DNA from: Tropicimonas marinistellae
GTDB lineage: Bacteria; Pseudomonadota; Alphaproteobacteria; Rhodobacterales; Rhodobacteraceae
DNA length: 64,000 nt
Direction: 5' to 3'
NCBI RefSeq assembly: GCF_001509585.1
Contig: NZ_LNCI01000007.1
Location: forward strand, 248,001 to 312,000
Below are positions 7,374-29,653 of this stretch, piece after piece. Numbering within the stretch: the stretch's first letter is position 1; the number at the start of each line of letters is the position of its first letter. The notes beneath the pieces are model-generated. The model saw only the letters and a program-made list of their open reading frames with translations. It made no database searches and had not been told where the DNA came from. The position numbers and the translations under genes were made by a program.

Positions 7374-8069
7374 CTATGTTCTCCTGCGTTCGAACTCGCG
7401 CCAAGCCTGCTCGAAGGCGGCGAAGTCGAACCCCTCGCGAGCTGCTGCATCCAGAACAATCCGCTCATTGGCCTGAGTCGTCCTGATCGCGGAGCCAAGC
7501 ACATGGGCAACATCGTCGGGGATAACCACGGCACCATGCCGATCGGCATGGACCAGATTGCCGGGAAGAACCCTCAACCCGAAGACGTCGACCGGGCAGT
7601 CGATGTCGGTGATATGGACAAAGGCATGGCTCGGACCGACGGACCCGGCCACGACAGGGAAACCGTCGGGCAGATCTCCCAGGTCGCGCATGACTCCATT
7701 GGTGAGGGCGCCGGACAGGCCGAACCCCTTGTGCACCGTTGTGTTGAGTTCCCCCCAATAGGCGCCGACACAATCGGGGTAATCGATATCCTCGATGACA
7801 CAGACAGCCGGTAGAACCGCGTCCGCCATGTAGCTGTAATAGGCCATCCGACGCGCCCGAATGGTCTCGGGGGGCTCGGAAGGGGGCGCCTTTGCGGAAA
7901 TCTTCGCGGTTCGCGCATATCCGACGATCGGAGCGCCTTCAGCGGACGAGCACAGCATCGTCCCACGGGTAAACGCGTCGAAGCCGCGCATTCCCTGGGC
8001 GACCTCGATCGCGTTGCAGACAGTCGGTGTGTCGACGGAACGCAGCAGTTCCAGCAGGGTCTTGTCCAT
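7374..8069 (-). CDS. RraA-like protein (HMG/CHA aldolase family)
   Basis: Member of the RraA / 4-hydroxy-4-methyl-2-oxoglutarate aldolase family, 231 residues. Catabolic members cleave 2-oxo-4-hydroxy acids to pyruvate using a divalent metal; others bind RNase E. Family features are present: TNGVMRDLGDLPD (conserved Arg-Asp pair) and VLPGNLVHADRHGAVVIP near the C terminus. The ATG at 8069 follows GGAGGCCTG and overlaps the stop of the hydrolase gene (TGATG). It is the last gene of the long minus-strand operon, which suggests a terminal retro-aldol step giving a central metabolite. That role is inferred from context. Confidence 0.82.
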   Translation of the reverse strand: MDKTLLELLRSVDTPTVCNAIEVAQGMRGFDAFTRGTMLCSSAEGAPIVGYARTAKISAKAPPSEPPETIRARRMAYYSYMADAVLPAVCVIEDIDYPDCVGAYWGELNTTVHKGFGLSGALTNGVMRDLGDLPDGFPVVAGSVGPSHAFVHITDIDCPVDVFGLRVLPGNLVHADRHGAVVIPDDVAHVLGSAIRTTQANERIVLDAAAREGFDFAAFEQAWREFERRRT

Positions 8070-8761
8070 CAGGCCTCCAGCCACGCGGCAATCGCCGCGT
8101 TCGTTTCATCCGGTTTCTCGAGTGTTGTCAGATGCCCTGCGCCGGGCACGACCACGAGGTGGCTTCCGGCGATCAGGTTCCGCATCAGTTCATGACGCTC
8201 CACGGGGCAGAGCCTGTCCTCCCCGCCGCACAGGATAAGCGCCTGGCCAGCGTAGCCACGCAGGGTTTCGCGCTGGTCGGGTCGGTCTCGCAGAGCCAAA
8301 GATTGGTTTACGAAGACCTCGGGTCCAAGTCCGAGTGCCATTTCCATGCACAGCTCAAGAATGCGATCCCGATCAGGCCCCTGCGCCAGGTAGTTCGGCT
8401 TCATCTCGTCGCGCATGACGCTTCGCAGGTGGCCGTGGCGGACGCGTGCGATCTGTTCCAGCCGGCGCTCTCGGAATGCGTCCTGCTCCGCCAGCGGGTT
8501 GGTGTCGAGAAGGGCGAGACGATCCACGCGGTTCGGCGCCTGCCGGACGATCTCCATCGCGAGGATACCCCCCATCGAGAGACCCGCCAATGCAAAGCGT
8601 GGTGGGGCGTGTTTCAACACGCCACGCGCCAGTTGCGCCATACTGGCCGCGTTCCCGATCGGAAAGCTCACCAGCGGAACGCGTCCGGAGAATGCCGCAA
8701 ACTGCGGCCCGAAGAGCCGCGCATCGCACATCATGCCGGGAAGAAGGACGAGCGGCGTCAT
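8069..8761 (-). CDS. Alpha/beta hydrolase
   Basis: Alpha/beta-hydrolase-fold enzyme of 230 residues, hydrolysing an ester, lactone, thioester or C-C bond. The nucleophile elbow is GLSMGG, the acidic residue lies in ILCGGEDRLCP, and the catalytic His is in VPGAGHLTTLEKP. The start at 8761 overlaps the preceding stop by 4 nt (ATGA); an N-terminal extension in the same frame has the Arg-rich look of out-of-frame sequence and is rejected. It sits between a MetE-C-like protein and an RraA-like aldolase, so it may open a ring or cleave an activated acid before aldol cleavage. Confidence 0.86.
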   Translation of the reverse strand: MTPLVLLPGMMCDARLFGPQFAAFSGRVPLVSFPIGNAASMAQLARGVLKHAPPRFALAGLSMGGILAMEIVRQAPNRVDRLALLDTNPLAEQDAFRERRLEQIARVRHGHLRSVMRDEMKPNYLAQGPDRDRILELCMEMALGLGPEVFVNQSLALRDRPDQRETLRGYAGQALILCGGEDRLCPVERHELMRNLIAGSHLVVVPGAGHLTTLEKPDETNAAIAAWLEA

Positions 8762-9891
8762 GCCTGTGCCGATGCGAGGGCCGCCCCCTCCGCGAGCGCG
8801 GCAAGCTTGGCATAGGCGACGTCCGGATCGACGGCTCCGAAGCCTGCGAAGGTGCCGAAGCCGCAATCGGAGCCGGCGATCACACGTTCTGCACCGACGA
8901 TGTCAATGAACCTTGCGAGCCGCTGCGCCACGAGGTCCGGATGCTCAACGAAGTTGGTGGTCGTATCGACAACGCCCGGGACCAGCACCTTATCCTCCGG
9001 GATTTCGGACTTCCGGTCACGGAACACCGTCCATTCATGCCCATGGCGCGGGTTTGACGTTTCGAAGAGCACATACCGCGCCTTTGCCGACATCAGTGTC
9101 GAAAAAACCTTGTCCATCGGAATATCACAGCAATGCGGGCCCTCGTAGTTGCCCCAGCAGATGTGGATGCGGACCTTCTCCTCGGGTACATCGGCGAGTG
9201 CATGGTTGAGCGCCTCGACATGTGCCGCCGCGACCTTGAGGAATTCCTCGTCGCTCAGATCCGTGAAGAGCATATGACGCGACAGGGCAAGGTCGGGGCA
9301 GTCCAGTTGCAGGTCGAGTCCTGCTGCAACAATGGTCTCGTATTCCGCCTTCATCGCGTCGGCAAGCGCGGCAAGATACGCCTCCCGGCTCGGATAGTGG
9401 TCGTTCTGCAGGAAGAGGGAAATCACCCCCGGCGAAGCCGCGTTCATGAAACCCCGCTCGGCCCCATGCTCGGCCATCGCCGCCTTCAGGTTGGCAATGT
9501 CCTTCTCCAGTTCGCCTTGGCCCTTGGAGCGCACCTCGCCGGTGCACATCGGGCGCGCATATTGCGGCGTACCGCCCTCTTCGGCGATACGTTTGAGGAA
9601 ACCCGGGAACATCTTCAGGTCGGCCGGCGCATTTCGCGGGGAATCGCCCGAGAACCCGGTGTAGCGGTCCTTTACATAGGTCGCGTAGGAAATCTTGGAT
9701 GTCTCGCCGTCGCTGACGATGTCAATTCCTGCCTCGCGTTGCCGGCGCACCGTCTCCGAAACGGCCATGCGCATGCAGGCGTCAAAGCCTTCGGAGTCAT
9801 AGGGCTCCTCCCGCTCCCGGGCAAAAATGAAATCCACGACCGCCTGGCTGCGCGGCAGGCTGCCGACATGCGTGGTTGCAATACGGGTCAT
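8758..9891 (-). CDS. MetE C-terminal-domain-like zinc protein (COG0620)
   Basis: TIM-barrel protein of 377 residues corresponding only to the catalytic C-terminal half of cobalamin-independent methionine synthase (full MetE is about 750). The Zn-ligand pattern is preserved: HIC in RIHICWGNYEGPHC, a downstream Glu, and the final Cys in IAGSDCGFGTF. The family includes methionine synthases, epoxyalkane:CoM transferases and many uncharacterised thiol- or methyl-transfer enzymes. The ATG at 9891 follows GGAGGAGAGA; a GTG one codon upstream is possible. Its place inside a catabolic operon argues against a housekeeping methionine role. Substrate unknown. Confidence 0.85.
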   Translation of the reverse strand: MTRIATTHVGSLPRSQAVVDFIFAREREEPYDSEGFDACMRMAVSETVRRQREAGIDIVSDGETSKISYATYVKDRYTGFSGDSPRNAPADLKMFPGFLKRIAEEGGTPQYARPMCTGEVRSKGQGELEKDIANLKAAMAEHGAERGFMNAASPGVISLFLQNDHYPSREAYLAALADAMKAEYETIVAAGLDLQLDCPDLALSRHMLFTDLSDEEFLKVAAAHVEALNHALADVPEEKVRIHICWGNYEGPHCCDIPMDKVFSTLMSAKARYVLFETSNPRHGHEWTVFRDRKSEIPEDKVLVPGVVDTTTNFVEHPDLVAQRLARFIDIVGAERVIAGSDCGFGTFAGFGAVDPDVAYAKLAALAEGAALASAQA

Positions 9892-9941
9892 CACTCTCTC
9901 CTCCGTTGGGTCGCCCGGCCGCTGATGGGACGGAAGGTCCC

Positions 9942-9976
9942 GCGCGCTGGCGGGGCTCGATGCCCCGCCGGCGCGC
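9942..9976 (-). other. Strong intra-operon hairpin between bicupin and MetE-like genes
   Basis: A 15-bp stem with one mismatch (9942-9956 pairs with 9962-9976) encloses a 5-nt loop in the 94-nt spacer. It is very GC-rich, and on the minus strand it is not followed by a T tract. It looks more like a processing, stability or attenuation element than a terminator. Confidence 0.55.
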
Positions 9977-9985
9977 CTCTCCTCC

Positions 9986-10945
9986 TTATCCGGCCCAGGT
10001 CGCCCCGGCGGGATCGTCTGTCGCGGTGACGCGATAGAGGCTGGCTTCGCCGGTCATCGACGGAGCCAGCGCATGCGTTTCGCCCGGATTGAGAAGCGCC
10101 GTGTCTCCCGGGGCCAGGACCGTCTCGCCACGCTCCCACCGCAGTTTCCAATGGCCCCGCACCGGCATCAGAACCGTGTGCTTGTCATGGCTGTGCATCT
10201 CGTCGGGAATAGAGCCCCGGGTCAGGAAATCGACCGCGAAACCGGGGCGGTCCTTGAGAAGTGCATCCATGCCGATCACTTTGGCCGGCTTCTTCGCGGC
10301 CAACGCCATAAGGTCCCAATAGCGGGCCACATAGTCCCGGATCACGCCCTCGACCGGCACTTCCGGATAGGCCTTCAACTCTTCCTCCGAAAGCAGCGGC
10401 ATCGGCCTCACGCCCTCGGGAAGGCTCTCTCCCTTCTTGGTATCGTAAAGCCGACCCGTCTCCGCCAGAACCAGCCCGTGATCGGCGGCATCCTCGATCA
10501 CCTGAGGCGCCCATGTCACCCCGCCGCCGGCATCGTCACCGCCGAGCACGGCCATGATCATCCCGTAATCGGTGCCGATATTCTCGAAGCCCCGGAAGAT
10601 GCCGGTTGGAATGTTGAAGATATCCCCCTCCTCGGCGACAAACTCACCCGCCGTGCCGTAGCGGCCCCAGAAGAACCGCCAGCGCCCCTTGAGCACGAAG
10701 AACACCTCGGCGGTTGTGTGCGAATGCAGCGAGTTTCGGCATTTCGGCGGCTGGCCCGCTGCACCGATATTAAAGCCAGGCGTCTCGGTGATGTGGACAT
10801 GCTGGTCGGCGCTCTCCGAAACGCCGCCGCCGATAATGGTGAAGTTTTCCTTTTGGTCCGAGCCAGGCGTATGAGCGTCGATGAAGGCCGTCTTGCAGGG
10901 TTTGAGTTCGCCGTAGCGGACGATGCGGTTTTCGATGGATGTCAT
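9986..10945 (-). CDS. Bicupin-domain protein
   Basis: Two-domain cupin of 319 residues, cytosolic. Cupin 1 (about residues 65-140) carries a metal-ligand-like HSHTTAEVFFVLKG segment. Cupin 2 (about 235-310) carries EMHSHDKHTVLMPVRG and PGETHALAP. Both histidine clusters look intact, so a metal-dependent dioxygenase, isomerase or hydrolase is plausible; gentisate-dioxygenase-like and quercetinase-like proteins share this layout. The start at 10945 has a weak Shine-Dalgarno and lies 164 nt from the preceding gene, the widest gap in this operon. It could be a tailoring enzyme for the operon's substrate. Confidence 0.78.
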   Translation of the reverse strand: MTSIENRIVRYGELKPCKTAFIDAHTPGSDQKENFTIIGGGVSESADQHVHITETPGFNIGAAGQPPKCRNSLHSHTTAEVFFVLKGRWRFFWGRYGTAGEFVAEEGDIFNIPTGIFRGFENIGTDYGMIMAVLGGDDAGGGVTWAPQVIEDAADHGLVLAETGRLYDTKKGESLPEGVRPMPLLSEEELKAYPEVPVEGVIRDYVARYWDLMALAAKKPAKVIGMDALLKDRPGFAVDFLTRGSIPDEMHSHDKHTVLMPVRGHWKLRWERGETVLAPGDTALLNPGETHALAPSMTGEASLYRVTATDDPAGATWAG

Positions 10946-11109
10946 TCTATTGGTCCAATGAAATCAGAATAGCCGGAAGGTGTAGCGCGTCGTCGGCGCC
11001 GCCCCGGTGGGCGCAGGTTCAATCGACGCGCGCGCAGGCTTGCGCGATGCGCGTGAAAGCGCCGTGCCGCTTCGCTCCCGTCGAGTGATGTCCTTCTCCC
11101 GCGCACCGC

Positions 11110-12099
11110 TCAGTACTCGCCGGTTTGCAGCAGGATCTGCTTCCAGATGGAGGTTTCATCGAAGAGCGTCCATTCTCGGCGCAACTTCGGCTCTGCCGTG
11201 CCGAGCAAACCGAATTCGGCATGGGAGATGCCGAGCACATAGACATCCGCCCCTGTCGGCGTGCCGAAGACGCCCCAGCCGTCGTGTTTGCCGTGAAGGC
11301 TCCAGCGGATCGCCGCGCGTGGCGGCATCATCGGGTCGTGCCGACCAATCTGGTGATGGATCGCGAAGGTCGCGTTGGGAAAGGAAGCCCGGAGCCCCAT
11401 CCAGAAGCGATCCACCGCCGAGAAGGAATGGCCCGTCACGCCACCCGGATACTCGGCCTGTACGGCGCGGTCGTACTCGGCCTCGATCACGCGCATGTCC
11501 GCACCCATGATCCGGGTCAGGATGTCGGCATAACGAACGCCCCATTCGTTGTCGTTTCCGCGCCCCGCGTAGGGTCCGACGATGTCGGTCGACGGGGTCA
11601 GTGGCTTCACGCAGGCCTCCGGCCCGCCCTCGTTCTCTATCAGACCGGCGGCATACTTCTTCGGGGCCCATCCCATCTGGCGCACTATCGCGCCCTGGTC
11701 GCGGATCAGCCATTCATCATTGATGGCATTGTCGATCGCATGGCAGTCGGCAAGTATGCGGTAGGTGAGCTTGGTCCCCGTGGCCTTTCCGTAAACGCCA
11801 TCGCCCAGATGTGTCGCCGTCGAGAGCAAACGGTGCGATGACAGCATGCCCACATCGGGTGTTCCGGACCAGATCACGTCCTCGCCCAGAAGGGTGCGGT
11901 CAGGGAACTCGGCCAGCGTCGCCATGGTTGCGCCGATAACGTTCTCGTTGCCCACCACCACCGAGGCCGGAGACCGCACAACGATCTCGGGCGCATAGTA
12001 ATCGTGCAACGTGGCGATGCCGCGGTCTTCCCAGATCTCCTTGGTGATGCCGATGATATAGTCGGGGAAATCCCGGAACTTGGGGTCGAAGCCTTTCAT
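11110..12099 (-). CDS. SnoaL-like (NTF2-fold) protein, double domain, divergent copy
   Basis: Protein of 329 residues with two tandem SnoaL/NTF2-like cone domains (about 20-150 and 185-325). It is the most divergent of the five relatives here; it keeps features such as GTKLTYRILADCHAIDNAINDEW and SLHGKHDGWGVF. The domains usually isomerise, cyclise or hydrolyse small hydrophobic molecules in a pocket. The start at 12099 overlaps the LacI stop by 4 nt with GAAGG about 9 nt upstream; an ATG three codons earlier is the alternative but sits directly against the Shine-Dalgarno. Actual reaction unknown. Confidence 0.72.
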   Translation of the reverse strand: MKGFDPKFRDFPDYIIGITKEIWEDRGIATLHDYYAPEIVVRSPASVVVGNENVIGATMATLAEFPDRTLLGEDVIWSGTPDVGMLSSHRLLSTATHLGDGVYGKATGTKLTYRILADCHAIDNAINDEWLIRDQGAIVRQMGWAPKKYAAGLIENEGGPEACVKPLTPSTDIVGPYAGRGNDNEWGVRYADILTRIMGADMRVIEAEYDRAVQAEYPGGVTGHSFSAVDRFWMGLRASFPNATFAIHHQIGRHDPMMPPRAAIRWSLHGKHDGWGVFGTPTGADVYVLGISHAEFGLLGTAEPKLRREWTLFDETSIWKQILLQTGEY

Positions 12100-13124
12100 G
12101 TCGTCCATCCTTCGGGCACACGGGCCGATGCGCGCACAATCAGGGGCGCCTCTATGGTCACATGCCGGGGTCTTGCGGTTTCAGGGGAGTCGATGCTTTC
12201 AAGCAGCGCCTTCACGGTTTCCTCGACCATGAGGTTGGCCCGTTGCCGAACGGTCGTGAGCCGATAGGCCAGCCAACCGGCGGTCGGGACATCGTCATAG
12301 CCGACGACCGAGACATCGCCGGGCACCGAAAGGCCAAGTTCGTAGCGCAGCACATCCATTACGATCAATGCCATGTGGTCGTTTGCCACGAAGACGGCGT
12401 CCGGGCGCTGCTCGGCCGGGCGGTCGAACATCTGGCGCGCTGCAGCGAATGTACGATCGGTGCTGAAATCGCCGACTTCACGGCTGTGGATCTCGCGCCC
12501 CGCCTCCGAGAGCGCTTCCCGGAAGCCCGCCTCGCGGTCACGCTGGGTCGAGGCCCCCTCCCAGCCGGCGATGTACCCTATGCGTTCGTGCCCGCCAGCG
12601 ACGAGGAACTCGCCAATCAGCCGCGCGCCCGCGCGGTTGTCCGACGTTACGGCGCTGGTGCCTTCCAGGTCTTGATAGCGGTTGAACAGCACCACTGGCA
12701 CGCCAGCCGCCTGGCAGCGCGAGGTGAGATCTGACGACAGCGCCACCGAGGCCATGATAATCCCGTCGACCTGGTAGTCGAGGATCTCCTCGACCACCGA
12801 ATTGATGTTCCCAGCTTTCTGAGATGCCATGAAGACCAGAACGTGGTACCCCGCCGCCTGCAGTGCGTTGGACAACTTCTCCAGTGCCTCCGGGTAGAAC
12901 TGGTTATCCAGATAGGCCACGACGAGCCCGATCATGCGCGAGCGACCGGAAACCATGGCACGGGCAAGGACGTTCGGCCGGTACCCAAGCTCGCTGGCGG
13001 CCTTCCGTACCTTTTCGACGGTCTTGGGAGAGGCCGAGGCGCCTGGCGTAAACACGCGACTAACCGCCGACTGGCTAACGCCAGCCCGCTCCGCAACCAT
13101 TTGTGCCGTGACCCGTTCCGCCAT
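12096..13124 (-). CDS. LacI-family transcriptional repressor (internal to operon)
   Basis: Repressor of 342 residues. The LacI helix-turn-helix is at about residues 6-26 (TAQMVAERAGVSQSAVSRVF), followed by a hinge and a periplasmic-binding-type effector domain (IGLVVAYLDNQFYPEALEKL). It is encoded inside the long operon: the ATG overlaps the SDR stop (TGATG), and its own stop overlaps the next start (ATGA). A repressor lying within the operon it presumably controls gives negative feedback. The likely operator is the 18-bp palindrome at 22384-22401 between the two divergent units. The inducer is probably the transported compound or an early product. Confidence 0.92.
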   Translation of the reverse strand: MAERVTAQMVAERAGVSQSAVSRVFTPGASASPKTVEKVRKAASELGYRPNVLARAMVSGRSRMIGLVVAYLDNQFYPEALEKLSNALQAAGYHVLVFMASQKAGNINSVVEEILDYQVDGIIMASVALSSDLTSRCQAAGVPVVLFNRYQDLEGTSAVTSDNRAGARLIGEFLVAGGHERIGYIAGWEGASTQRDREAGFREALSEAGREIHSREVGDFSTDRTFAAARQMFDRPAEQRPDAVFVANDHMALIVMDVLRYELGLSVPGDVSVVGYDDVPTAGWLAYRLTTVRQRANLMVEETVKALLESIDSPETARPRHVTIEAPLIVRASARVPEGWTT

Positions 13125-13888
13125 CAGTCCGCCGTCCAGCCCCCGTCGATCATCAGCGCCGAGCCGGTCACCAGCGCCGAGGCGTCCGAGGCCAGGTAGA
13201 CCACCCCACCCATCACGTCCTCGATCTCTCCCACGCGGCCGAGCTTGATCTTGTCCTCGATCCAGGCCCGGCGCTCCGGGATGGCCAGGGTCTGTGCGCC
13301 CAGCGGCGTGCGGATGAACGTTGGGCAGATCGTGTTGATCCGTATTCCCAACGGCCCCCATTCGATCGCCATTGCCTTCACCATGCCCTCCAGCCCGTGC
13401 TTGGAGGCTGCATAGACCGACCGGTCAATCCCGCCCACGTGACCCATTTGGCTTGAGATGTGAATAATCGACCCTTTTCTACCCGCTGCCCTCATTGCCC
13501 GCGCTGATTCCACTGAGAGGAAATGCGCGGCGCGCAGATTGATGCCCATGACCGCATCGTAATCCTCGGCTGTACTCTCAAGGGCTGCTGAGTGTCGGGC
13601 CAGACCGGCGGAATTGACGACAACGTCGAACGCAGCTCGCGCTTGGAACTCGACCGCGATCGCATCGGTGTTCGCAATATCGAGGGTGAGCGGTTCAACC
13701 GAGAACCCGGCGGCCGCCATCTCGGCCACGGCGTCGTTCAGGCGCGCCGCGCCGCGCGCTGCACAGACGACGTGCGCGCCAGCCTCGGCCAGCGCCACGG
13801 CACAGCCAAGTCCGATACCCGACGAGGCGCCGGTCACCAGCGCTGTCCGGCCATCGAGACGGAACGACGGTGTCCGCGGCAGCGCCAT
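13124..13888 (-). CDS. Short-chain dehydrogenase/reductase
   Basis: Classical SDR of 254 residues, NAD(P)-dependent alcohol/ketone oxidoreductase. The cofactor motif TGASSGIG is near residues 19-26 and NSAG near 93; the catalytic Ser is in IIHISSQMG and YAASK carries the Tyr-Lys pair. The C terminus ends with the usual VTGSALMIDGGW. The start is set by [20 protein letters not shown] and overlaps the SnoaL-like stop. It lies next to a HisD-family alcohol dehydrogenase, so two successive oxidations of a polyol-like substrate are plausible. The stereochemistry and substrate cannot be read from sequence. Confidence 0.9.
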   Translation of the reverse strand: MALPRTPSFRLDGRTALVTGASSGIGLGCAVALAEAGAHVVCAARGAARLNDAVAEMAAAGFSVEPLTLDIANTDAIAVEFQARAAFDVVVNSAGLARHSAALESTAEDYDAVMGINLRAAHFLSVESARAMRAAGRKGSIIHISSQMGHVGGIDRSVYAASKHGLEGMVKAMAIEWGPLGIRINTICPTFIRTPLGAQTLAIPERRAWIEDKIKLGRVGEIEDVMGGVVYLASDASALVTGSALMIDGGWTAD

Positions 13889-14940
13889 CAGGCTTCGCCC
13901 ACCGGGAATGGAATGGAGCCCGGCACGCGCGCCTTGTTGAACTCGCGCAGGCGATGGAAAACGTCGACGCCAAGCTGGCGGTACGCGTCGAGGATATCGA
14001 CCATCACCCAATTCTCTCGGATCTTGCCGTTCTCCAACCGCCAAAAGTCGAGACTCCGCATGGTGATCCGCTGCCCCGCCGGCGCAATGCCCATCCAACC
14101 GTCATGGGTGACGGTTTGGATCATGTTCGGCCAGCCGGTCACGGCGGCGTAGTCGCCATCGCCGAAAAAGTGATAGGTGATGTCGTCTACGTACTGTCCA
14201 CGGTCCGGCATGCCATTCAGGAAAGGGATCTGGTGCCAGTTGCGGAACCCGGCGATGCCGCGCCCCGTGCCGATACCCGAGGGCCCGTACCAGTTCATCC
14301 GCTCGTGCCAGAACCGGTTCATCTCCATCACGTCCGGCCCGCCCTGCGAGGGATGCTTCTTGAGATGGTTCAGCATGTCGATGATATGCAGCTGGCTGGC
14401 GCGGGACTTCCCTTCGTCCCACGGGCCCGGAACGATCCCGTCGAGCGTTGCTGGCCCCGGCACGTGCCATTCCCGCCCGAGGCTCGGCGCCATCGGCCAG
14501 GCGTTTGCCTGCATCATCATCTCCGGAATGTCCCAGAGCGACTGGATCTCGACAACCATGCCGTCAACCACCCGGTAGAACTCGTGGAACCGCATGTGAA
14601 CCTGATGGCCGGTCGGCGGGATATCGATCCACGGCGCGACAAAAACCCCGGTGTAGTAGCCACCGCAGCCCACCCAGTCGGCGCCGAACTCATCCGGCCC
14701 GGCCACAACGATGTAGTCGCGGCGCTCGAGGTCGGGCAGCGAGGCGAACAGAGGCGCATAGCAGGTGTCGTAAAGCGCCTCCGGACCTGTCACGTCGCCG
14801 AAAGGGTGGCACATGTGCACGAGGGCATCCGGAGCCAGAACCGTGTCAAGAGCAGCCCGGACTCCGGCCTCACCGAAGTCGTACATCGCCGCCCGGAGCG
14901 GGGCGAGTACGGCCTTGTTGGCGGTGTGGACGTCGCTCAT
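13888..14940 (-). CDS. SnoaL-like (NTF2-fold) protein, double domain
   Basis: Protein of 350 residues with two SnoaL-like domains: N-terminal about 10-165 ([31 protein letters not shown]) and C-terminal about 205-335. The latter carries the signature shared with its neighbours, [17 protein letters not shown] followed by YRQLGVDVF. It has no signal peptide, so it is cytosolic. ATG 14940 overlaps the HisD-like stop by 4 nt. Close relatives are encoded at 16839-17930 and 22425-23441, a single-domain relative at 16318-16842 and a divergent one at 11110-12099. Such an expansion within one operon implies several isomerase or cyclase-like steps, or hetero-oligomers. Confidence 0.82.
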
Positions 14941-16265
14941 TCCGCCGCCTCGCGGTACGGTGCGCCTTCGCCGTAGGGAACATTGATTCCGCCGTAGCGA
15001 CGGACTCGGATGTTGCATTGCTCGGCATGGCCCACAAAGCCCTCCAACATGCACAGGCGTGAGCCGTATTCGCCGATCAGCGTCGCAGCCTCGTCGGTCG
15101 TTACCTTCTGGTAGCTGTGGGTTTTCAAGAACTTACCAACCCAAAGCCCACCGGTGTAACGGCCCGCCTTCTTGGTCGGCAGAGTGTGATTGGTGCCGAT
15201 CACCTTGTCACCATTGGCAACGTTTGTGCGCGGGCCGAGGAAAAGCGCGCCGTAACTGGTCATGTTTTCAAGGAACCAATCGTCACGATCCGTCATGACC
15301 TGCACGTGCTCGGAGGCGATGTCATTGGCCACCTCCAGCATTTCCTCGTGGCTCTCACAGAGGATTACCTCTCCGTAGTCGTTCCAGCTCACCGACGCAG
15401 TGGTGGCAGTCGGCAGGATTTTCAGGATCCTGCTGATCTCCGACAGGGTTTCCTCGGCCAGCTTTCGGGAGGTCGTGACGAGCACCGCGGGAGAATTGTA
15501 CCCGTGCTCGGCCTGACCGAGGAGATCGGTGGCGCAGAGCTCCGCGTCCACCGTTTCGTCCGCGATGACCATTGTCTCGGTCGGGCCGGCGAAGAGGTCG
15601 ATCCCCACCCGGCCAAAAAGCTGTCGTTTGGCCTCAGCCACGAAGGCATTACCCGGGCCCACAAGCATGTGCACAGGTTCGATCGTCTCTGTACCGATCG
15701 CCATCGCGCCGATCGCCTGTATGCCGCCGAGCACGTAGATCTCGTGCGCGCCGCCCAGGTGCATTGCCGCGATCACGCCGGGGTTCGGTTTGCCCTGGAA
15801 GGGCGGCGTGCAGGCGACGATCCGGGGCACCCCGGCCACCGCCGCAGTGGCAACCGACATGTGGGCCGAGGCGACCATCGGGAACTTGCCAGCAGGCACA
15901 TAGCAACCCACCGATTGAACGGGAATGTTCTTGTGCCCCAGTATGACACCCGGAAGAGTTTCCAACTCGACGTCGAGCATCGAGTCCCGCTGGGCCTGTG
16001 CGAAGTTCTTCACTTGCTCCTGGGCAAACCTGATGTCGGCGAGTTCCCGTTCGGACAGCTGGCCGATCAGCGCGTCAATCTCCGCCTGGGTGAGGCGGAA
16101 GGAAGCCGGACTGTAGCCATCGAACTTATTGCTGAGTTCGCGTACTGCCGCATCGCCACGCGTCTCGATGTCCTTCAGGGTTGCTTCGACCACGGCGCGG
16201 GTCTTCGCATCATCTTCTGCGCGCTCGGCTTCGGGCTTGCCACGCTTGAGATACTCGATCGTCAT
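14937..16265 (-). CDS. HisD-family dehydrogenase, sulfopropanediol 3-dehydrogenase-like
   Basis: Zn- and NAD-dependent alcohol dehydrogenase of the histidinol dehydrogenase family, 442 residues. Conserved features: [12 protein letters not shown] (Gln and His ligands), SEHVQV (catalytic Glu-His), [13 protein letters not shown], and LEGFVGHAE with the last His ligand. From memory it is closer to HpsN, which oxidises 2,3-dihydroxypropane-1-sulfonate, than to biosynthetic HisD (starts [14 protein letters not shown], ends with [13 protein letters not shown]). No histidine gene is nearby and the operon is catabolic, so a polyol or hydroxy-alkyl substrate is likely. GAGG lies ahead of ATG 16265. Sulfonate specificity is not proven: no sulfolactate lyase or TRAP sulfonate transporter is present. 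Confidence 0.82.
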
Positions 16266-16317
16266 GTTACATCCTCGATTAATCGGGGCGGCCTGTTTGA
16301 GGCTCCCCGGATATTCA

Positions 16318-16842
16318 CTACGACCGTGGCGGCGTGCGTTCGCCTCGGTCGTAGGCCTCCCAGCCTTCGCCGTTGAAGACGTCGACGCCGAGTTGGGCGA
16401 GCACATGCGGAAAATCCACCGTTACCCAGTTGTCCACGATCTTGCCGTCAACGACCTTCCAGAAGTCCATGTAGCGGATCTCGACTCGCTTACCGGTCGG
16501 CGCCACGCCCATGAATGTGCCGGAGTGCGTGGCCTCTTGCCGGCCGAAGGCGGCCGCCCATTCGCCCATGTAGAGGCGCGCTTCGTCGATGCACGACTTC
16601 TCGGAAAAGGCCGCTTGGAAGGGCCGTTGCCAGTTGTCCTGGAACTCCTTGAGCCCGCGCTTGGTGCCGCAGCCGGCATTGCCCAACCAGCGGAAATTCT
16701 CAGCGAAGAACTCGCCGATGTCGGCAATGCGGTGGTCGTTGAGCCCATCCACCATGGATTCGATCACCGCGCGGGTCTCCTCGGTCTTGCTCATGTCCGT
16801 ATCGCGGCTCAAAACGGCCTGCTCGGGGCGGGAACCTTTCAT
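16318..16842 (-). CDS. SnoaL-like (NTF2-fold) protein, single domain
   Basis: Protein of 174 residues, one SnoaL-like domain that aligns with the C-terminal half of the longer paralogues. The shared motif is [16 protein letters not shown] followed by QLGVDVF near the C terminus. ATG 16842 overlaps the preceding stop (ATGA) and has GGAGG upstream; a second ATG at 16794 is less well placed. As a free single domain it could pair with a double-domain paralogue or act alone as a cyclase or isomerase. It is followed by 52 nt and then the HisD-family gene. Confidence 0.8.
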
Positions 16843-17930
16843 GCGGCCTCCTTCGTGTCGGTCAATGCTGCCATCCGCGCGAACACGTCGACGCCGAGTT
16901 GTCGGTAGAGGTCGAGCATGTCGACCATTACCCAGCATTCGCGCACGCGACCGTTCTCGATACGCCAGAAATCGAGGCTGCGCCGAGTGATCCGGCGCCC
17001 GGTTGGGGCGAGGCCGAGAAAGCCGTCGCCCGAATGAAGTGCCGTTGCCGAAGGCCAGCCGGTGAATGCAACGAAATTCCGGTCGCCGAAAAAAACACTT
17101 TCGTCGAGATGGCGGGTGTTCTCTGACAGGCCCTCCCGGAATTGACGGAAGATGCGGTTCGCGATGGCGTCATGTCCGCGCGCGGTGCCGAGCCCGGTCG
17201 GCCCGTACCAGAGGGCATGATCGTGCCAGTATCCGGTGAGCCCGTGGCCCGGCGACACGGCGGTGCCCTGCTTCAGATCGTGCAGCATGTCCCAGACCCG
17301 TCGAACGGAAGCATCAGCCAGCGCTGCGTCGAAAGGCGCGGTGATCACGCCCATGCCATCCACAGGGCCCGGGCACATCCATTCCACGCCCAGTTGCGGC
17401 GCCATCGGCCAGGCACCGGCCTGAAGCATGACCTGGGGGATATCCCAGAGGCCTTCCATCTCGACCACGCGGCCACCCTCGATGCGAAGGTATTCCTGAT
17501 ACCGCATGAAAACCGCCGCGCCAGCGGCCGGAATCCCGAGCCAACTCTGCACCAGTGTCCCGACGAGATTGCCTCCCAGCCCGACCCAGTTTCCGCTCTT
17601 TCCTTCGCCCCAACGCGGCCCAGCCATGACAATGAAGTCCCGGCGTTCCATGTCGGGCATGGCCCGCAGAAGCGGCGCATAGACCCGTTCCCAGAGGTCT
17701 TCGGGCCCGGCCACGTCCTGAAACGGGTGGCCAAGCCGGATCTTCGCGTCGGGCGCGAAAAGCGCGAAGATTGCCTGCTGGAGCCGTACCGCGTCACAGG
17801 CCATGAATGCCGCCCGCAGCTGCGCAATCAAGGCCTTGTTGGCGTCATGGATCGACGACCGAGCGTCCGCCGCTGCGCGTTGCGACAATCCTTCGGGAGT
17901 CATCGCAGGGTTCACGGAACTGTCGCTCAC
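16839..17930 (-). CDS. SnoaL-like (NTF2-fold) protein, double domain
   Basis: Protein of 363 residues if started at the GTG at 17930, which overlaps the permease stop by 4 nt (GTGA) and gives an N terminus (MSDSSVN) like that of the paralogue at 14940. An internal ATG at 17903 is the alternative. The N-terminal SnoaL domain contains GHPFQDVAGPEDLWERVYAP and the C-terminal domain RSLDFWRIENGRVRECW with YRQLGVDVF. The family resemblance to 13888-14940 is high along the whole length, so the two probably arose by duplication. It is the first enzyme-type gene after the transporter genes. Function unknown. Confidence 0.8.
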   Translation of the reverse strand: MSDSSVNPAMTPEGLSQRAAADARSSIHDANKALIAQLRAAFMACDAVRLQQAIFALFAPDAKIRLGHPFQDVAGPEDLWERVYAPLLRAMPDMERRDFIVMAGPRWGEGKSGNWVGLGGNLVGTLVQSWLGIPAAGAAVFMRYQEYLRIEGGRVVEMEGLWDIPQVMLQAGAWPMAPQLGVEWMCPGPVDGMGVITAPFDAALADASVRRVWDMLHDLKQGTAVSPGHGLTGYWHDHALWYGPTGLGTARGHDAIANRIFRQFREGLSENTRHLDESVFFGDRNFVAFTGWPSATALHSGDGFLGLAPTGRRITRRSLDFWRIENGRVRECWVMVDMLDLYRQLGVDVFARMAALTDTKEAA

Positions 17931-18808
17931 CCCTTCACCGCTCCCGCGGTCAGGCCGCTGACGATCTGGCGCTGGAAGAAGATGATCAACACAATCAGCG
18001 GCACCGTGGCCGAGACAACCGCAGCAACAGCGAACATCACGTTGCCCTGCACCTGTGTGGAGCCCAGGAAACTGGCGATCTTGGGGATCATGGTCTCGTT
18101 CTCCTGGCTGAGCAGCATCCGAGTGACGGTGAAGTCGTTGTAGGCCAGCAGAAAGCTGAAAAGGCCGGTGGTGATCACACCGGGCCACATCACCGGAATG
18201 ATGACATGGCGGAAGGCCTGGAACCGCGTGCAGCCATCGACCATGGCGCTTTCATCCAGATCCTTGGGGATGTTCAGAAAGAAGGAGTGCAGCATCCACA
18301 GCGTGAATGGCTGGTTGATCGCCACCAGGACGATGATCGTCGTCGGCAGAATCCCCCAAATGTTCCATTCGAAGAACGGCAGCAGGTAGCCCGAGACAAG
18401 TGTGATATGCGGCATTGCTCGGAAAACGAGCGCCGCCATCAGAAGCCAGAAGGCGTATTTGTAGCCTGATCGCGCCAGTGCGTAGCCACCGAGCGTGCCG
18501 AAGGTCAGCGAGATCGTGACCGTGAAAAAGACGACGATGGAAGTGTTCAAAACGGCCCGCCAGAATTCCTCCTGCACCCAGGCGCCGTAGTAGCCAGCAG
18601 TGGTGAAGGCGCTGCCGGTCTCGGCAATCGTGTTGGTGCCGATGAGCGCGTTCGTCCAGTCCGCCTTCGAGAAGAAGTCGCCCTGCACCTTGAACGATCC
18701 CCAGGCCGTCCAGAGGAAGGGAAAGGAGGCGATGATCACCCAAATGATCACGAATGCCACCGAAAGGATCGTAAGCGGGGTGATCCGGGATTGTGCCTTG
18801 GTCGCCAT
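17927..18808 (-). CDS. Carbohydrate-type ABC transporter permease (MalG/UgpE-like)
   Basis: Inner-membrane permease of 293 residues with about six transmembrane segments. The cytoplasmic EAA loop that docks the ATPase is DESAMVDGCTRFQAFRHVIIPVMWPG at about residues 190-215. It ends in the typical QRQIVSGLTAGAVKG tail of MalG-like proteins. AGGGGAAG precedes the ATG. It forms a heterodimer with the permease at 18819-19850, with the binding protein at 19916-21157 and the ATPase at 21256-22308. The substrate is presumably the compound degraded by the downstream enzymes. Confidence 0.9.
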   Translation of the reverse strand: MATKAQSRITPLTILSVAFVIIWVIIASFPFLWTAWGSFKVQGDFFSKADWTNALIGTNTIAETGSAFTTAGYYGAWVQEEFWRAVLNTSIVVFFTVTISLTFGTLGGYALARSGYKYAFWLLMAALVFRAMPHITLVSGYLLPFFEWNIWGILPTTIIVLVAINQPFTLWMLHSFFLNIPKDLDESAMVDGCTRFQAFRHVIIPVMWPGVITTGLFSFLLAYNDFTVTRMLLSQENETMIPKIASFLGSTQVQGNVMFAVAAVVSATVPLIVLIIFFQRQIVSGLTAGAVKG

Positions 18809-18818
18809 GATCTTCCCC

Positions 18819-19850
18819 TCAGACGGATTTGCGGTTGAAGTCGCGCCACGTGCGGATCAGCACCGGCGTCAGCAGGAATGCCACCCCAATGATCGTCAGC
18901 AGGGAAGTCGCACCAGCGGAGCCGTAGAGTGGGTTCCCGGCCGCAATGAGGTCGTTGTAGATGATCCAACTGAGAGAGCGCGCATGCGCCTCGGCCTGGA
19001 AGGAGATGATCGGCTCGAAGACCCTGAAATTGTCCATCAGCTGGATCAGCGTGATGAAAACAACCAGCGGCATGAGGTGCGGTACAACCACGTGGATCAT
19101 GCGCTGCCACTTTGTGGCGCCGTCGATCATCGCCGCTTCCATCGTGTCATGCGGCACGGTCTGAAGCCCGGCGTAGAAGACGATGAAACTAAACGGGAGC
19201 GATGACCAAATGCCGTATACGATCAGCATCACCCAGTTGAGCGAGGTGGTGGCCTTGAGACTGAGGCTCGGATCGTTGAAGAGTCTTTGCAGCAAGGCGC
19301 CGATGACGCCATCCGCATCCACCATCCAGAACAGGATGAGCGCGCCGACTAGCGGCGTCACGATCATGGGCAGGAGCGAGATGAAGATCGTCGGTCCCTT
19401 GAACAGCCGAGGCAGGTTGTTCACCCCGACCGCGATGGCAAGGCCCAGGACAATCACGAATGGTGTCACCACGAAAGTGTAGGTCAGTGTGAATGCGAGC
19501 GCCCAGTAGAACGGCAGGTTGAGCAGTTCGTTGAAGAAGTCACCGAGACTCTCGGTCGTCCGCCAAGCCTCGCCGATTTCGGAGAACGCCAGATGCGCGC
19601 GGTTGGTATAGGTGCCAAGCCCGTTGAAACGCCCCAACGGCTGCTCGGATCGGAGCGCTGCAGTGGCCTCGGTGTCTATCGTAGTCGTCTCATCGCAGCC
19701 AAAGGGGCCACAGCTTTCGGTGACGACAAGCACTTGCTCGTGCTCGATATAGAGCGACTGAACGGCAACCGAGACGATAGGCAGTGCGATGAAAAGCACC
19801 ATCGCGGATAGCGTCGGCAGGATAAACCAGAAGAAGGTACGGTGTTTCAT
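18819..19850 (-). CDS. Carbohydrate-type ABC transporter permease (MalF/UgpA-like)
   Basis: Inner-membrane permease of 343 residues. A first transmembrane helix (about 7-30) is followed by a sizeable periplasmic segment (about 35-105) containing CGPFGCDETTTID, whose two Cys could form a disulfide. The main helical domain then carries the EAA loop EAAMIDGATKWQRMIHVVVPHLMP. The periplasmic insertion between helices 1 and 2 is reminiscent of MalF's P2 loop but shorter. It lies 10 nt upstream of the partner permease. Confidence 0.9.
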   Translation of the reverse strand: MKHRTFFWFILPTLSAMVLFIALPIVSVAVQSLYIEHEQVLVVTESCGPFGCDETTTIDTEATAALRSEQPLGRFNGLGTYTNRAHLAFSEIGEAWRTTESLGDFFNELLNLPFYWALAFTLTYTFVVTPFVIVLGLAIAVGVNNLPRLFKGPTIFISLLPMIVTPLVGALILFWMVDADGVIGALLQRLFNDPSLSLKATTSLNWVMLIVYGIWSSLPFSFIVFYAGLQTVPHDTMEAAMIDGATKWQRMIHVVVPHLMPLVVFITLIQLMDNFRVFEPIISFQAEAHARSLSWIIYNDLIAAGNPLYGSAGATSLLTIIGVAFLLTPVLIRTWRDFNRKSV

Positions 19851-19881
19851 CGCTCAGGGTCTCGGATCTGGGATCGAGGTG

Positions 19882-19908
19882 CCGGGGGCCTGCGATGCAA
19901 GCCCCCGG
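19882..19908 (-). other. Intercistronic hairpin after the binding-protein gene
   Basis: A perfect 8-bp GC stem (CCGGGGGC 19882-19889 with GCCCCCGG 19901-19908) has an 11-nt loop. It sits 8 nt after the binding-protein stop and 32 nt before the permease start. Such elements commonly protect the upstream mRNA, so that more binding protein than permease is made. No T tract is present. Confidence 0.6.
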
Positions 19909-19915
19909 GAGGGCT

Positions 19916-21157
19916 TTACTGAAGGAATCCGGCTTCCTTTGCCGAGGTGACGTAGGCCGCTTCAATGTCCGCCAACGTCTGTTCTGCCGTTTCGTCTCCC
20001 TTGAGGAAGTCGGCCAGTTCGGCGCTCGCCGCGTTGTGCATCAGATTGATGTAGGGGATCATCGGGTAAATCTTCGCCCCTCCTTGAGCCGTCGCTGCGA
20101 CGCCTTCCGCTGCGGGACCAGGCTTGAAACCCTCGATCAGCCAGATCGCGTCATCGTTGTGTTCTGCAACCATGTCAGCGGTGAGCGCCCCTGCCAAAGC
20201 TGCAAAGGTCGCCTCGGCCTCCTCATCCGAAATGTTCTGAGCGATGGTGATACCGTCCCACCACAAGGTCGCCGCTGGGATGGAACCGCCGGCCACTGTC
20301 GGCGCGGAGGCGAGTACCGTCGACCCGGTCACCTCCGGGCTGGAGCCCTGATCGTCGAGAATGTCGCCGCCACGCGAGCCCCACATGATCCCAAGCGCGG
20401 CCTGACCGGCTTCCCAGAGGCCCTGGGTTTCGTTCGACGCATGGCTCAGGTAATCGGGGTGGGCATACTCGGTCAGAGACTTGATCGAGTTGAGTGCTGC
20501 AACACCGGTTTCGTTGTTGACGTTCGGGTCGGCGGTGCCGGGTTTGAATAGCTCGCCACCATGCGCGAAATAGAACAGGTTGAACAGCTCGCCCATGTTC
20601 CACCCGCTCGCATTCATCACGATCGGGTGCTCCATGATTCCAGCGGCGCGGATTTTCTCGGCGGCCGCTACAACCTCCTCGACGGTCGCCGGAATGCCGT
20701 CGACACCGGCTTGTTCGAGGATATCGGAGCGCGCGTAGAGGTGCTGCGAATTGGCCATGAACGCGACGGCCATCACCTTGCCATCGACCGTGATGAGTTG
20801 GTTGGGCTTCAGGCTTGCGCCGTATTTCTCGATCAGATCGTCAAGCGGGCGCACAAGCCCGTCATTCATCTGTTGTGTGAGCGTCGAGTTCGCAACGATG
20901 ACAGACGTGTATTGTGCGGGGTTCGGCGTCTGGGCTTGATTCATCATGTCGCGCGTGTCGTCGCGCAGTGTGATGGTGAACTCGTTCGCCGCGCCGCCAC
21001 AGTTCGCCTCGGCGGTCGCCGTGACCGCCTGGATCGCCGGAAAGTCGCTGCCAAGGACGCGGATCGACTGGCCTTCCGGGCCACATTCCGCGGCAAAGGC
21101 GGCTGAACCCATCAACCCGACAAGCGCGCCCGCGATGGTGGCATTCTTCAGAAGCAT
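19916..21157 (-). CDS. ABC transporter substrate-binding protein, carbohydrate type
   Basis: Periplasmic binding protein of 413 residues. The signal peptide covers about residues 1-22 (MLLKNATIAGALVGLMG, then SAAFA before AECGPEG). The mature protein belongs to the extracellular solute-binding family 1 (NSTLTQQMNDGLVRPLDDLIEKYG, then a GWNMGELFNLFYFAHGGELF segment lining the cleft). ATG 21157 follows AGGGAGAA; the open frame upstream is not signal-peptide-like. Three cysteines occur early in the mature chain. It is the receptor for the uptake system feeding the SnoaL/HisD operon. Confidence 0.9.
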   Translation of the reverse strand: MLLKNATIAGALVGLMGSAAFAAECGPEGQSIRVLGSDFPAIQAVTATAEANCGGAANEFTITLRDDTRDMMNQAQTPNPAQYTSVIVANSTLTQQMNDGLVRPLDDLIEKYGASLKPNQLITVDGKVMAVAFMANSQHLYARSDILEQAGVDGIPATVEEVVAAAEKIRAAGIMEHPIVMNASGWNMGELFNLFYFAHGGELFKPGTADPNVNNETGVAALNSIKSLTEYAHPDYLSHASNETQGLWEAGQAALGIMWGSRGGDILDDQGSSPEVTGSTVLASAPTVAGGSIPAATLWWDGITIAQNISDEEAEATFAALAGALTADMVAEHNDDAIWLIEGFKPGPAAEGVAATAQGGAKIYPMIPYINLMHNAASAELADFLKGDETAEQTLADIEAAYVTSAKEAGFLQ

Positions 21158-21255
21158 ATCATTCTCCCTGTTTCTTTCTGATCGAGGATGCGCCTTGCAA
21201 TCGCGCATCCAGGTTGTTCCTCCGGCCGGCCTTGCGCCGGAGGTATCTCGCGATC

Positions 21256-22308
21256 TCACGCCTCAATTCTCTGTCCGGTTTCGCCGTCGAACAGATGGCA
21301 GATCTCTTTCGGAACGGAGAGCGACACCTGATCATCGATCTCGGCCCGGAAATCCTTGGGCCCGCGCACAGCGACCAGTTCGCGACCGATCCGGACCGTT
21401 ACCATCGTGGCATCGCCCAGAAGTTCCAGCGTGTAGATCGGCGCCGTGATTTCGTGGTGATCGGCATCGCCAAGCCCGGCGTCTTCTGCTCGAAAACCCA
21501 AGATCACTTTGCCGTCGGGCGCGTTGAATCCCGCGATCTCCACATGTTCGGCGTGGAATGTGCCGCCCTTGAGTTCGCCATCCATCAGGTTCATCGCCGG
21601 ATTGCCGATGAAGCTGGCAACAAAAGTGTTGGCGGGGGTGTCATAGATGTCGGTCGGCGTGCCGACCTGCTGCACCACGCCCTTTTTCATGACCACCACG
21701 CGGTCGGCCAGCGTCATCGCTTCGATCTGGTCATGGGTCACGTAGACGGTGGTGACCTGCAACTCGTGGCTCAGGTTCTTGATCTGGGCGCGCGTCGACA
21801 CTCGCAACTTGGCATCGAGGTTGGAGAGCGGTTCGTCCATAAGGAACACATTCGGCTCCCGCACGATGGCACGAGCAAGTGCCACACGTTGACGTTGACC
21901 GCCGGAGAGTTCGGCAGGCTTGCGATGCAGGAAGTCATCCAGCTCGACCATCGCCGAGGCGCGCCGCACCTTCTCGTCGTGACTTTTGGGATCAATTCCG
22001 CGCACCTTCAGAGGAAAGCGGATATTGTCGTAGACGTTCATGTTCGGGTAGAGCGCGTAACTCTGGAACACCATGGCCACGTCACGGTCCTTGGGTTCGA
22101 GCTCGTTGACCCGTTTACCATCGACCAGAATGTCGCCCTCGGTCGGATCCTCCAGCCCGGCAATCATTCGCATTGTTGTGGTCTTGCCGCAGCCCGATGG
22201 GCCTAGCAGAACCAGGAACTCCCGGTCCGGAATTGTCAGGTCGAAGTTGTCGACGCCGACAAAGCTGCCCCAGCGTTTTGATATGTTTCGAAGCTGGATC
22301 TCGGCCAT
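21256..22308 (-). CDS. ABC transporter ATPase (MsmK/UgpC-like)
   Basis: Cytoplasmic ATPase of 350 residues. Walker A GPSGCGKTT is at about 36-44, followed by the Q-loop (VFQSYALYPNMNV), the signature LSGGQRQRVALARA, and Walker B with the D-loop (VFLMDEPLSNLDAKLR). A C-terminal TOBE/MalK-like domain covers about 240-340. GGGGAG precedes the ATG. It is the first gene of the long minus-strand operon, starting 116 nt from the divergent SnoaL-like gene across the palindrome at 22384. Of the transporter genes, only the ATPase precedes the binding-protein gene. Confidence 0.92.
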   Translation of the reverse strand: MAEIQLRNISKRWGSFVGVDNFDLTIPDREFLVLLGPSGCGKTTTMRMIAGLEDPTEGDILVDGKRVNELEPKDRDVAMVFQSYALYPNMNVYDNIRFPLKVRGIDPKSHDEKVRRASAMVELDDFLHRKPAELSGGQRQRVALARAIVREPNVFLMDEPLSNLDAKLRVSTRAQIKNLSHELQVTTVYVTHDQIEAMTLADRVVVMKKGVVQQVGTPTDIYDTPANTFVASFIGNPAMNLMDGELKGGTFHAEHVEIAGFNAPDGKVILGFRAEDAGLGDADHHEITAPIYTLELLGDATMVTVRIGRELVAVRGPKDFRAEIDDQVSLSVPKEICHLFDGETGQRIEA

Positions 22309-22383
22309 GCGGCAATCTCCCCGTGCGCTCTTGCATACGCTTTCAACAAGGGTAGACGCGCTTGCGACAATCTGGCAAGAATT

Positions 22384-22401
22384 TTTGCATACCTATGCAA
22401 A
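22384..22401. promoter_or_regulatory. Perfect palindrome between divergent units (candidate LacI operator)
   Basis: TTTGCATACCTATGCAAA is an 8-bp inverted repeat around CC, 23 nt upstream of the plus-strand SnoaL-like start and 75 nt upstream of the ATPase start. A half-site TTGCATA recurs at 22331-22337. A single site could control both promoters. The LacI-type protein at 12096-13124 is the obvious candidate ligand, although the centre is CC rather than CG. Confidence 0.65.
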
Positions 22402-22424
22402 TATTCCTCGAGGAGATCCGTCAG

Positions 22425-25093: not shown

Positions 25094-25119
25094 CAAAATA
25101 GTATTGATTTCATATTTTG
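25094..25119. promoter_or_regulatory. Inverted repeat, candidate TetR operator
   Basis: CAAAATA (25094-25100) and TATTTTG (25113-25119) are perfect inverted copies 12 nt apart, in the AT-rich spacer between the divergent TetR and binding-protein genes. Position and symmetry suit a TetR dimer acting on both promoters. Confidence 0.5.
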
Positions 25120-25173
25120 CCGCGTCAAGCTGATTGGCATCTGAACAATGACAAACTGAAGACAGGGAACACC

Positions 25174-26232: not shown

Positions 26233-26239
26233 ACCGGAA

Positions 26240-29626: not shown

Positions 29627-29653
29627 GCCCGACCGACACGAAAGGATCGCCTC

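Follow-up and report, generated by a model that had tools for sequence, protein, structure and literature searches.

A conserved LacI-type regulon rich in SnoaL proteins in Tropicimonas marinistellae and its possible role in gadusol or mycosporine catabolism

What does a run of 15 leftward genes in Tropicimonas marinistellae import and degrade? The genes lie at 7374-22308 of a 64,000-nucleotide (nt) stretch of contig NZ_LNCI01000007.1 (positions 248,001 to 312,000), called the window here, and encode an importer, two dehydrogenases, four SnoaL proteins, a bicupin and further putative enzymes together with a LacI-family repressor. The original prediction, made from the DNA letters, described a coupled operon for an unrecognised catabolic pathway. 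Our results support well the view that these genes form a genuine unit, a conserved regulon of the LacI type whose catabolic pathway has not been described before. It very probably comprises 16 genes with their own LacI-type repressor and serves to import and degrade a small polar carbon compound. For the substrate we tentatively propose an O-methylated cyclohexenone of the gadusol/mycosporine type, perhaps a sunscreen compound of algae, which would be catabolised to pyruvate and oxaloacetate; a sugar derivative is about as likely.

Gene calls and family matches bore out both the predicted run and the families named for it: 15 genes follow one another on the minus strand, the first being the ATPase gene (21256-22308) and the last the RraA-like gene (7374-8069). 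With the start codons judged best from the sequence, neighbouring genes overlapped by 1 or 4 nt at 8 of the 14 junctions (permease 2/SA, SA/s1, HisD/SB, SB/SDR, SDR/LacI, LacI/SD, MetE/hydrolase and hydrolase/RraA), so the predicted "at least nine" overlaps were slightly too many. The remaining junctions had gaps of 98, 65, 10, 52, 164 and 91 nt. The four SnoaL proteins predicted inside the run were confirmed, three of them two-domain and one single-domain. A fifth, SE, had been missed: this sixteenth gene is divergent and lies beyond the coordinates of the predicted run. The features, with SDR standing for short-chain dehydrogenase/reductase, were as follows.

22425-23441, plus strand: SE, two-domain SnoaL protein (open reading frame 22362-23441; start at 22425 judged by alignment)
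22385-22400: O1, predicted LacI-type operator TTGCATACCTATGCAA, 1 mismatch to the consensus palindrome
22331-22346: O2, degenerate second predicted operator, 3 mismatches, 54 bp from O1
21256-22308, minus strand: ATP-binding cassette (ABC) importer ATPase, MalK/UgpC type (Pfam ABC_tran)
19916-21157, minus strand: solute-binding protein (SBP_bac_1), weakly like the sugar binders NagB2, MalE3 and SmoF
18819-19850, minus strand: permease 1 (BPD_transp_1)
17927-18808, minus strand: permease 2 (BPD_transp_1)
16839-17930, minus strand: SA, two-domain SnoaL protein, GTG start
16318-16842, minus strand: s1, single-domain SnoaL protein, nearest to the C-lobes of SA and SB
14937-16265, minus strand: HisD/HpsN-like zinc dehydrogenase, motif GKFPM at residues 126-130
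13888-14940, minus strand: SB, two-domain SnoaL protein, bait for the synteny search
13124-13888, minus strand: SDR dehydrogenase, nearest model KduD, under its cut-off
12096-13124, minus strand: LacI-family repressor, presumed binder of O1/O2
11110-12099, minus strand: SD, divergent two-domain SnoaL protein (SnoaL family)
9986-10945, minus strand: bicupin; H74, H76, E80 and R118 invariant, N-terminal domain without the fourth cupin histidine
8758-9894, minus strand: MetE-C-like protein without the N-terminal domain, HxC/E/C residues kept
8069-8761, minus strand: alpha/beta hydrolase, nearest models PcaD and BioH, far under their cut-offs; GLSMGG motif
7374-8069, minus strand: RraA-like aldolase candidate, Arg-Asp motif kept

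Conserved synteny of the HisD-like and SnoaL genes, named in the original prediction as a way to check it, was found in relatives. SB was the sole bait. Of 139 relatives the best 80 were retained, which gave a sample of 80 loci in named genomes, many of them close relatives (e.g. Ruegeria). The genes for HisD, SB, SDR, LacI, SD and the bicupin were contiguous and in the same order in 53 of the 80 loci. Among the 52 loci with about 10 kb on each side, 42 contained all four importer genes and all six of these genes; of the same 52, 36 had a recognised MetE gene, 35 a hydrolase gene and 40 an RraA-like gene, and a 10-kb flank may stop short of these last three genes. HisD was not recognised in 15 of the 80 loci, several of which consisted of importer and SnoaL genes alone.

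The stretch between SE and the ATPase gene contains the two predicted operators, O1 and O2. At up to 3 mismatches the window held 2 operator matches, compared with 0.06 expected. Near-palindromes were present in 36 of 44 homologous intergenic stretches (window counted, many from close relatives), one of them (L141) with altered outer bases, and the other 8 showed none by that criterion. When a fixed pattern was applied, a site was found in 56 of the 80 loci and pairs 54-56 bp apart in 33. Across the 80 SB-positive genomes, the consensus at up to 2 mismatches was matched 135 times in its forward form, while the reversed control pattern was matched 8 times (columns summed); 12 genomes had no match. 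Twenty further stretches around listed sites were analysed: 3 adjoined known SnoaL genes, and in 8 of the other 17 a cluster-type gene, in some cases a lone cupin or a lone HisD gene, lay within 350 bp of the site. The search of the T. marinistellae genome itself (G000) yielded a single site, the one at this locus; two GC-rich palindromes of the TTGCAAYCGGTTGCAA type on contig C1 (10402-10417 and 14689-14704) differ from it and are perhaps operators of another LacI-type regulator. As the sole proper site is at this locus, the search added no regulon genes in that genome. A promoter scan showed no excess (3 against 3.2), and terminator-like elements numbered 18 against 12.9 (SD 3.2).

The operon thus has its own LacI gene and a conserved palindromic putative operator at its promoter. 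The common pattern of operator sites suggests that SE and the operon form one regulon, presumably under the LacI protein encoded within the operon. In five short clusters with an importer and SB and no LacI gene recognised in the fetched stretch (L097, L098, L100, L101 and L110), the operator pattern was seen about 100 bp upstream of the ATPase gene. Since the operator is kept in these clusters, a LacI protein may act on them in trans. The predicted coupled block was upheld in its conserved synteny and shared operator; the unit is larger than predicted, including SE and the operator. Nor is it always one transcription unit: a lone cupin or HisD gene stands behind a similar operator in some genomes, and some loci are reduced to the importer and SnoaL genes. 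Several unrelated transcription units, side by side by chance, would account for the three gaps of 91-164 nt and for the lone genes. We consider this highly improbable, given that gene order is kept in most sampled loci and that even the lone genes retain a similar operator.

We next consider where the regulon occurs. Of 198 genomes sampled from the window's family, 80 had an SB match (E 1e-10), as had 19 of 289 sampled from its class (E 1e-15). SE matches were found in 6 of 275 genomes of the class of Halomonas smyrnensis (E 1e-15) and in 5 of 81 of its genus (E 1e-20), the centre genome being counted in both. Hosts were mainly marine Alphaproteobacteria and also Halomonas, with reduced versions in Vibrio and a haloarchaeon. 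Relatives of SB were located on 25 plasmid records, including those of Ruegeria, Paracoccus, Octadecabacter, Vibrio, Ensifer and the haloarchaeon Halobellus limi. Vibrio pelagius carried the importer with four SnoaL genes; Halobellus carried the importer, four SnoaL proteins of two-domain length, one short SnoaL protein and a MetE-like gene. SB loci also came from SAR116 and other open-ocean records of metagenome-assembled genomes (MAGs) or single cells. The family-level frequency and the open-ocean records suggest that the substrate is probably common in the sea.

The five SnoaL proteins all scored above the Pfam SnoaL cut-off. SA, SB and SE are related two-domain fusions in which N-lobes match N-lobes and C-lobes match C-lobes. 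The s1 protein is like one C-lobe on its own, whereas SD has two domains but is only distantly related. D137 and D315 were invariant in 33 sequences of the SB/SA/SE type, and likewise in 36 when SD was added; we take the conserved Asp near the end of a SnoaL domain to be catalytic. The AlphaFold model of SB (mean predicted local distance difference test score, pLDDT, 92.0) matched single-domain cyclases of the SnoaL type, and against polyether epoxide hydrolases of 269-283 residues the match was nearly full-length with a large root-mean-square deviation. The SnoaL/IdmH polyketide cyclases and the Lsd19/MonB epoxide hydrolases share the fold of each domain and the Pfam SnoaL family with the window proteins, which differ in being two-domain fusions within a catabolic importer operon. 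SA was the best match in 6 of the 80 loci only.

The HisD-like protein scored 394 bits against the dihydroxypropanesulfonate (DHPS) dehydrogenase HpsN and 253.5 bits against the best histidinol dehydrogenase among solved relatives. The available text of PMC11382572 gives the axial zinc site motif as GRY[A/S]H in HpsN and GSAPL in HisD, and describes zinc ligands that include hydroxyl and sulfonate. Homologues of at least 40% identity, a threshold that leaves out true HisD, formed an alignment of 104 rows, with the window twice and hence 103 distinct sequences. GKFPM was exact in 93 of these, and 102 fitted G-[KG]-[FY]-P-[MLI]. The HpsN-type motif was seen in one (L124, GRYSH, 46% identical) and the HisD motif GSAPL in none of the 103, true HisD having been excluded beforehand. 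The Glu-His pair, the Asp of GDK, the C-terminal His and the Gln ligand were kept in all 104 rows, which places the protein in the HisD/HpsN superfamily of zinc dehydrogenases. HpsN, the (R)-DHPS 3-dehydrogenase of PDB 8v35, was the best sequence match and has the Glu-His pair, GDK and the C-terminal His in common with it, but the window protein has GKFPM in place of GRY[A/S]H and stands in a setting of ABC importer and SnoaL genes.

Both named activities were rejected for this protein. Histidinol dehydrogenase was discarded because GSAPL is replaced by GKFPM; the genome has another, higher-scoring HisD on contig C7. HpsN was discarded because GKFPM replaces the motif with the sulfonate-binding His126. 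As judged from its motifs, the HisD-type protein belongs to a subgroup of its own, apart from both histidinol and DHPS dehydrogenases. With zinc and catalytic residues kept and the motif changed, it most likely functions as a zinc dehydrogenase but acts on another substrate. The same evidence bears on catabolism of a DHPS-like sulfonate, in which the gene would encode HpsN. The closest solved relatives are indeed DHPS dehydrogenases, but with the HpsN motif all but missing from the homologues and no sulfonate lyase family among the operon proteins, we regard this as very unlikely.

Among the remaining enzymes, the bicupin kept H74, H76 and E80 in 30 sequences, with an equally invariant R118 for the fourth histidine; we read Arg118 as standing at the place of the fourth metal ligand. 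In a Foldseek search with its model (pLDDT 91.1), quercetin 2,3-dioxygenase ranked first, with vicilins and oxalate decarboxylase close behind. The quercetinase YxaG (1y3t) has the bicupin fold in common with the window protein, from which it differs at about 14% identity and in the Arg118 of the N-terminal domain. On the basis of fold and motif only, the bicupin may be a cupin dioxygenase. The MetE-like, hydrolase and RraA-like alignments were made after rows with stops or less than 85% coverage were dropped. The MetE-like protein kept HxC, E and C, presumably the zinc ligands of the MetE-C superfamily, in 64 of 64 rows, and belongs to that superfamily; as a cobalamin-independent methionine synthase it was rejected, the best NCBIfam score being 92 of 406 bits. 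The hydrolase kept the SMGG motif in 64 of 64 rows. The RraA-like protein kept Arg-Asp in all 61 rows and scored 56.7 bits against the Pfam RraA-like cut-off of 24.5. It could be aligned over the Arg-Asp motif with the 4-carboxy-4-hydroxy-2-oxoadipate (CHA) aldolase 3noj (E 1.8e-4, third after two chains of unproven function), but at 32.4 of 304.5 bits it fell outside the NCBIfam family of RraA-type CHA aldolases (LigK/PcmE) and was rejected as a member.

How might these proteins act together? In 4-deoxygadusol, a candidate substrate, the cyclohexenone ring carries a methoxy group flanked by two oxygenated carbons, and a tertiary carbinol bears CH2OH. HisD and HpsN act on HO-CH2-C(XH)-CH2-Z, a spacing that 4-deoxygadusol would match with its enolate oxygen as Z. 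We propose that the ABC importer takes up the substrate and that the substrate or a product relieves repression at O1/O2. The SnoaL proteins, by cofactor-free acid-base chemistry, would hydrolyse the C-N bond that holds Gly, Ser or Thr in mycosporine-like amino acids, and would also isomerise or dehydrate the ring. The HisD-like zinc enzyme would convert the ring CH2OH to COOH, and the bicupin would cleave the C(OMe)=C(OH) bond to give a methyl ester of CHA. The alpha/beta hydrolase would then release methanol to leave CHA, with the MetE-like protein handling the methyl group in an alternative branch. LigK/GalC aldolases split CHA into pyruvate and oxaloacetate, and we infer the same aldol cleavage for the RraA-like protein. 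The order of steps in the original prediction (import, oxidation, SnoaL step, cupin step, transfer, hydrolysis and aldol cleavage) was backed by no result.

Two published observations agree with the gene set by analogy. In the portion of PMC12314914 available, the syringate route of Pseudomonas sp. NGC7 combines ring cleavage to a methyl ester, an alpha/beta-hydrolase methyl esterase, a putative SnoaL-like isomerase and a CHA aldolase, as proposed here. It differs in having a LigAB-like dioxygenase and one SnoaL-domain protein compared with five in the window, and the same portion mentions no HisD-type gene or sugar-type importer. The review PMC3083659, in the part available, refers to a suggestion that hydroxyamino acids are removed from shinorine and porphyra-334 through hydrolysis by Vibrio harveyi; it also lists palythine sulfates. 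Were the substrate a mycosporine, the locus would provide the enzymes of a process that, in that part of the review, is reported only as an activity. Slightly less probable than the substrate class itself is a complete route for breaking down mycosporine-like amino acids, from import to pyruvate and oxaloacetate, borne by both chromosomes and plasmids of marine bacteria and in part by a haloarchaeon. A literature search for the gene set found no paper naming it, most subscription papers being outside the search; in a broad search the sole SnoaL-mentioning paper among the matches listed was the syringate study. For bacterial mycosporine use, titles and abstract starts among the matches listed showed no such pathway. 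Whatever its substrate, the locus brings together a new subgroup of HisD and several SnoaL paralogues, and its repressor, operator and binding protein allow candidate substrates to be tested directly.

Several results weigh against gadusol or mycosporine as the substrate. No direct tie of the locus to mycosporines was found. The MetE-like gene was recognised in 46 of the 80 loci (36 of the 52 with full flanks), several loci have the importer and SnoaL genes alone, and no cluster gene was recognised near the site in 9 of the 20 operator-centred stretches. The quercetinase match is at the level of the fold (template modelling score about 0.5, 14% identity) and lies among storage vicilins and oxalate decarboxylase; the RraA-like protein reaches a small part of the aldolase family cut-off; and an associated amidohydrolase resembles a sugar lactonase. 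Genes for threonine use were also weighed. Tdh and Kbl genes lie between SnoaL genes in Halomonas (3 of 5 genomes) and beside SB in L079, and Kbl reaches the end of the Ensifer stretch L118. The mycosporine proposal preceded sight of these genes, and Kbl proximity was then run as a systematic test: among the matches listed, just 1 of the 80 family genomes had Kbl no more than 10 kb from a SnoaL gene. Threonine/serine genes were therefore set aside as support and kept as a hint. An L-serine ammonia-lyase gene near a SnoaL gene in Vibrio europaeus was rejected as well, being absent from the similar stretch of Vibrio sp. THAF191d (L161).

The lactonase-like gene points to oxidative catabolism of a sugar or O-methylated sugar, which we regard as possible. 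By this route, the SDR would form a lactone, a lactonase would open it, SnoaL proteins would dehydrate or isomerise the product, the HisD-like enzyme would oxidise the primary alcohol and the RraA-like protein or an HpcH aldolase would yield pyruvate. The sugar-type importer, the LacI repressor and the nearness of the SDR to KduD fit such a substrate. So does the fuconolactonase-like amidohydrolase (123 of 400 bits): 37 of 148 loci carry it, for the most part adjoining SE. HpcH/HpaI-like aldolases with GarL/HpaI-like resemblance were present in four divergent loci (two of them tested), and the stretch around the gammaproteobacterial locus L144 carries a D-mannonate dehydratase gene. However, a sugar leaves the bicupin, the MetE-like protein and the esterase-like hydrolase unexplained. 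Nor did the 15 operon proteins show any sugar kinase or sugar-acid dehydratase family, and the fuconolactonase-type amidohydrolase, sought in the window, was absent.

The parallels with the syringate pathway (PMC12314914, seen in part) also suggest degradation of a lignin-type methoxylated aromatic, with the bicupin as the ring-cleaving dioxygenase and a lower route via CHA. The cluster on the Halobellus plasmid has genes for an aldolase/citrate lyase and for a LigM/DesA-like O-demethylase as neighbours, and intradiol dioxygenase and flavin monooxygenase genes, read as hydroxyquinol-type, are convergent with the short locus L066. The LigM link comes from this one plasmid, however, where the family occurs at six places and the protein falls below both family cut-offs; nearness to the cluster is therefore weak, and we downgraded the link, both here and as support for the gadusol/mycosporine proposal. 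No LigAB-type dioxygenase was seen among the operon proteins, HisD chemistry and sugar-type import would be superfluous, and the named hosts are mainly marine. An aromatic substrate is thus unlikely.

Other genes were noted beside relatives of the cluster. In the class of Halomonas, L142 and L143 have SnoaL genes with a TonB-dependent receptor, and sulfatase-like genes below family cut-offs were present in the fetched stretches of L143 and L130. A DmdA gene (598 bits, cut-off 410) near six short Boseongicola/Silicimonas MAG loci was not used, as these represent one lineage and genes lie between. At L193 (5066-9508), a SnoaL gene, a GMC (choline-dehydrogenase-like) oxidoreductase gene and s1 surround an operator-like site, with an agmatinase-like gene just downstream. 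Amidase-like genes in or beside SnoaL/importer clusters (L189, 2867-4270; L140, 8470-9870) might serve an amide-bearing substrate. Near SB and SDR, L154 and L155 encode a conserved protein of about 200 residues, the L155 copy having no Pfam or NCBIfam match at the limits used.

Elsewhere in the window, a second, separate importer cluster on the plus strand (25117-30643) appears, by our reading, to encode an SBP_bac_8 protein, two permease-like proteins and one ATPase-like protein, and is followed by a metallo-beta-lactamase-fold gene and an arginase-family gene. On the minus strand, 38767-41745 encodes a 992-residue protein with glucose/sorbosone dehydrogenase, Ig-like, cadherin-like, Calx-beta and RTX repeat domains.

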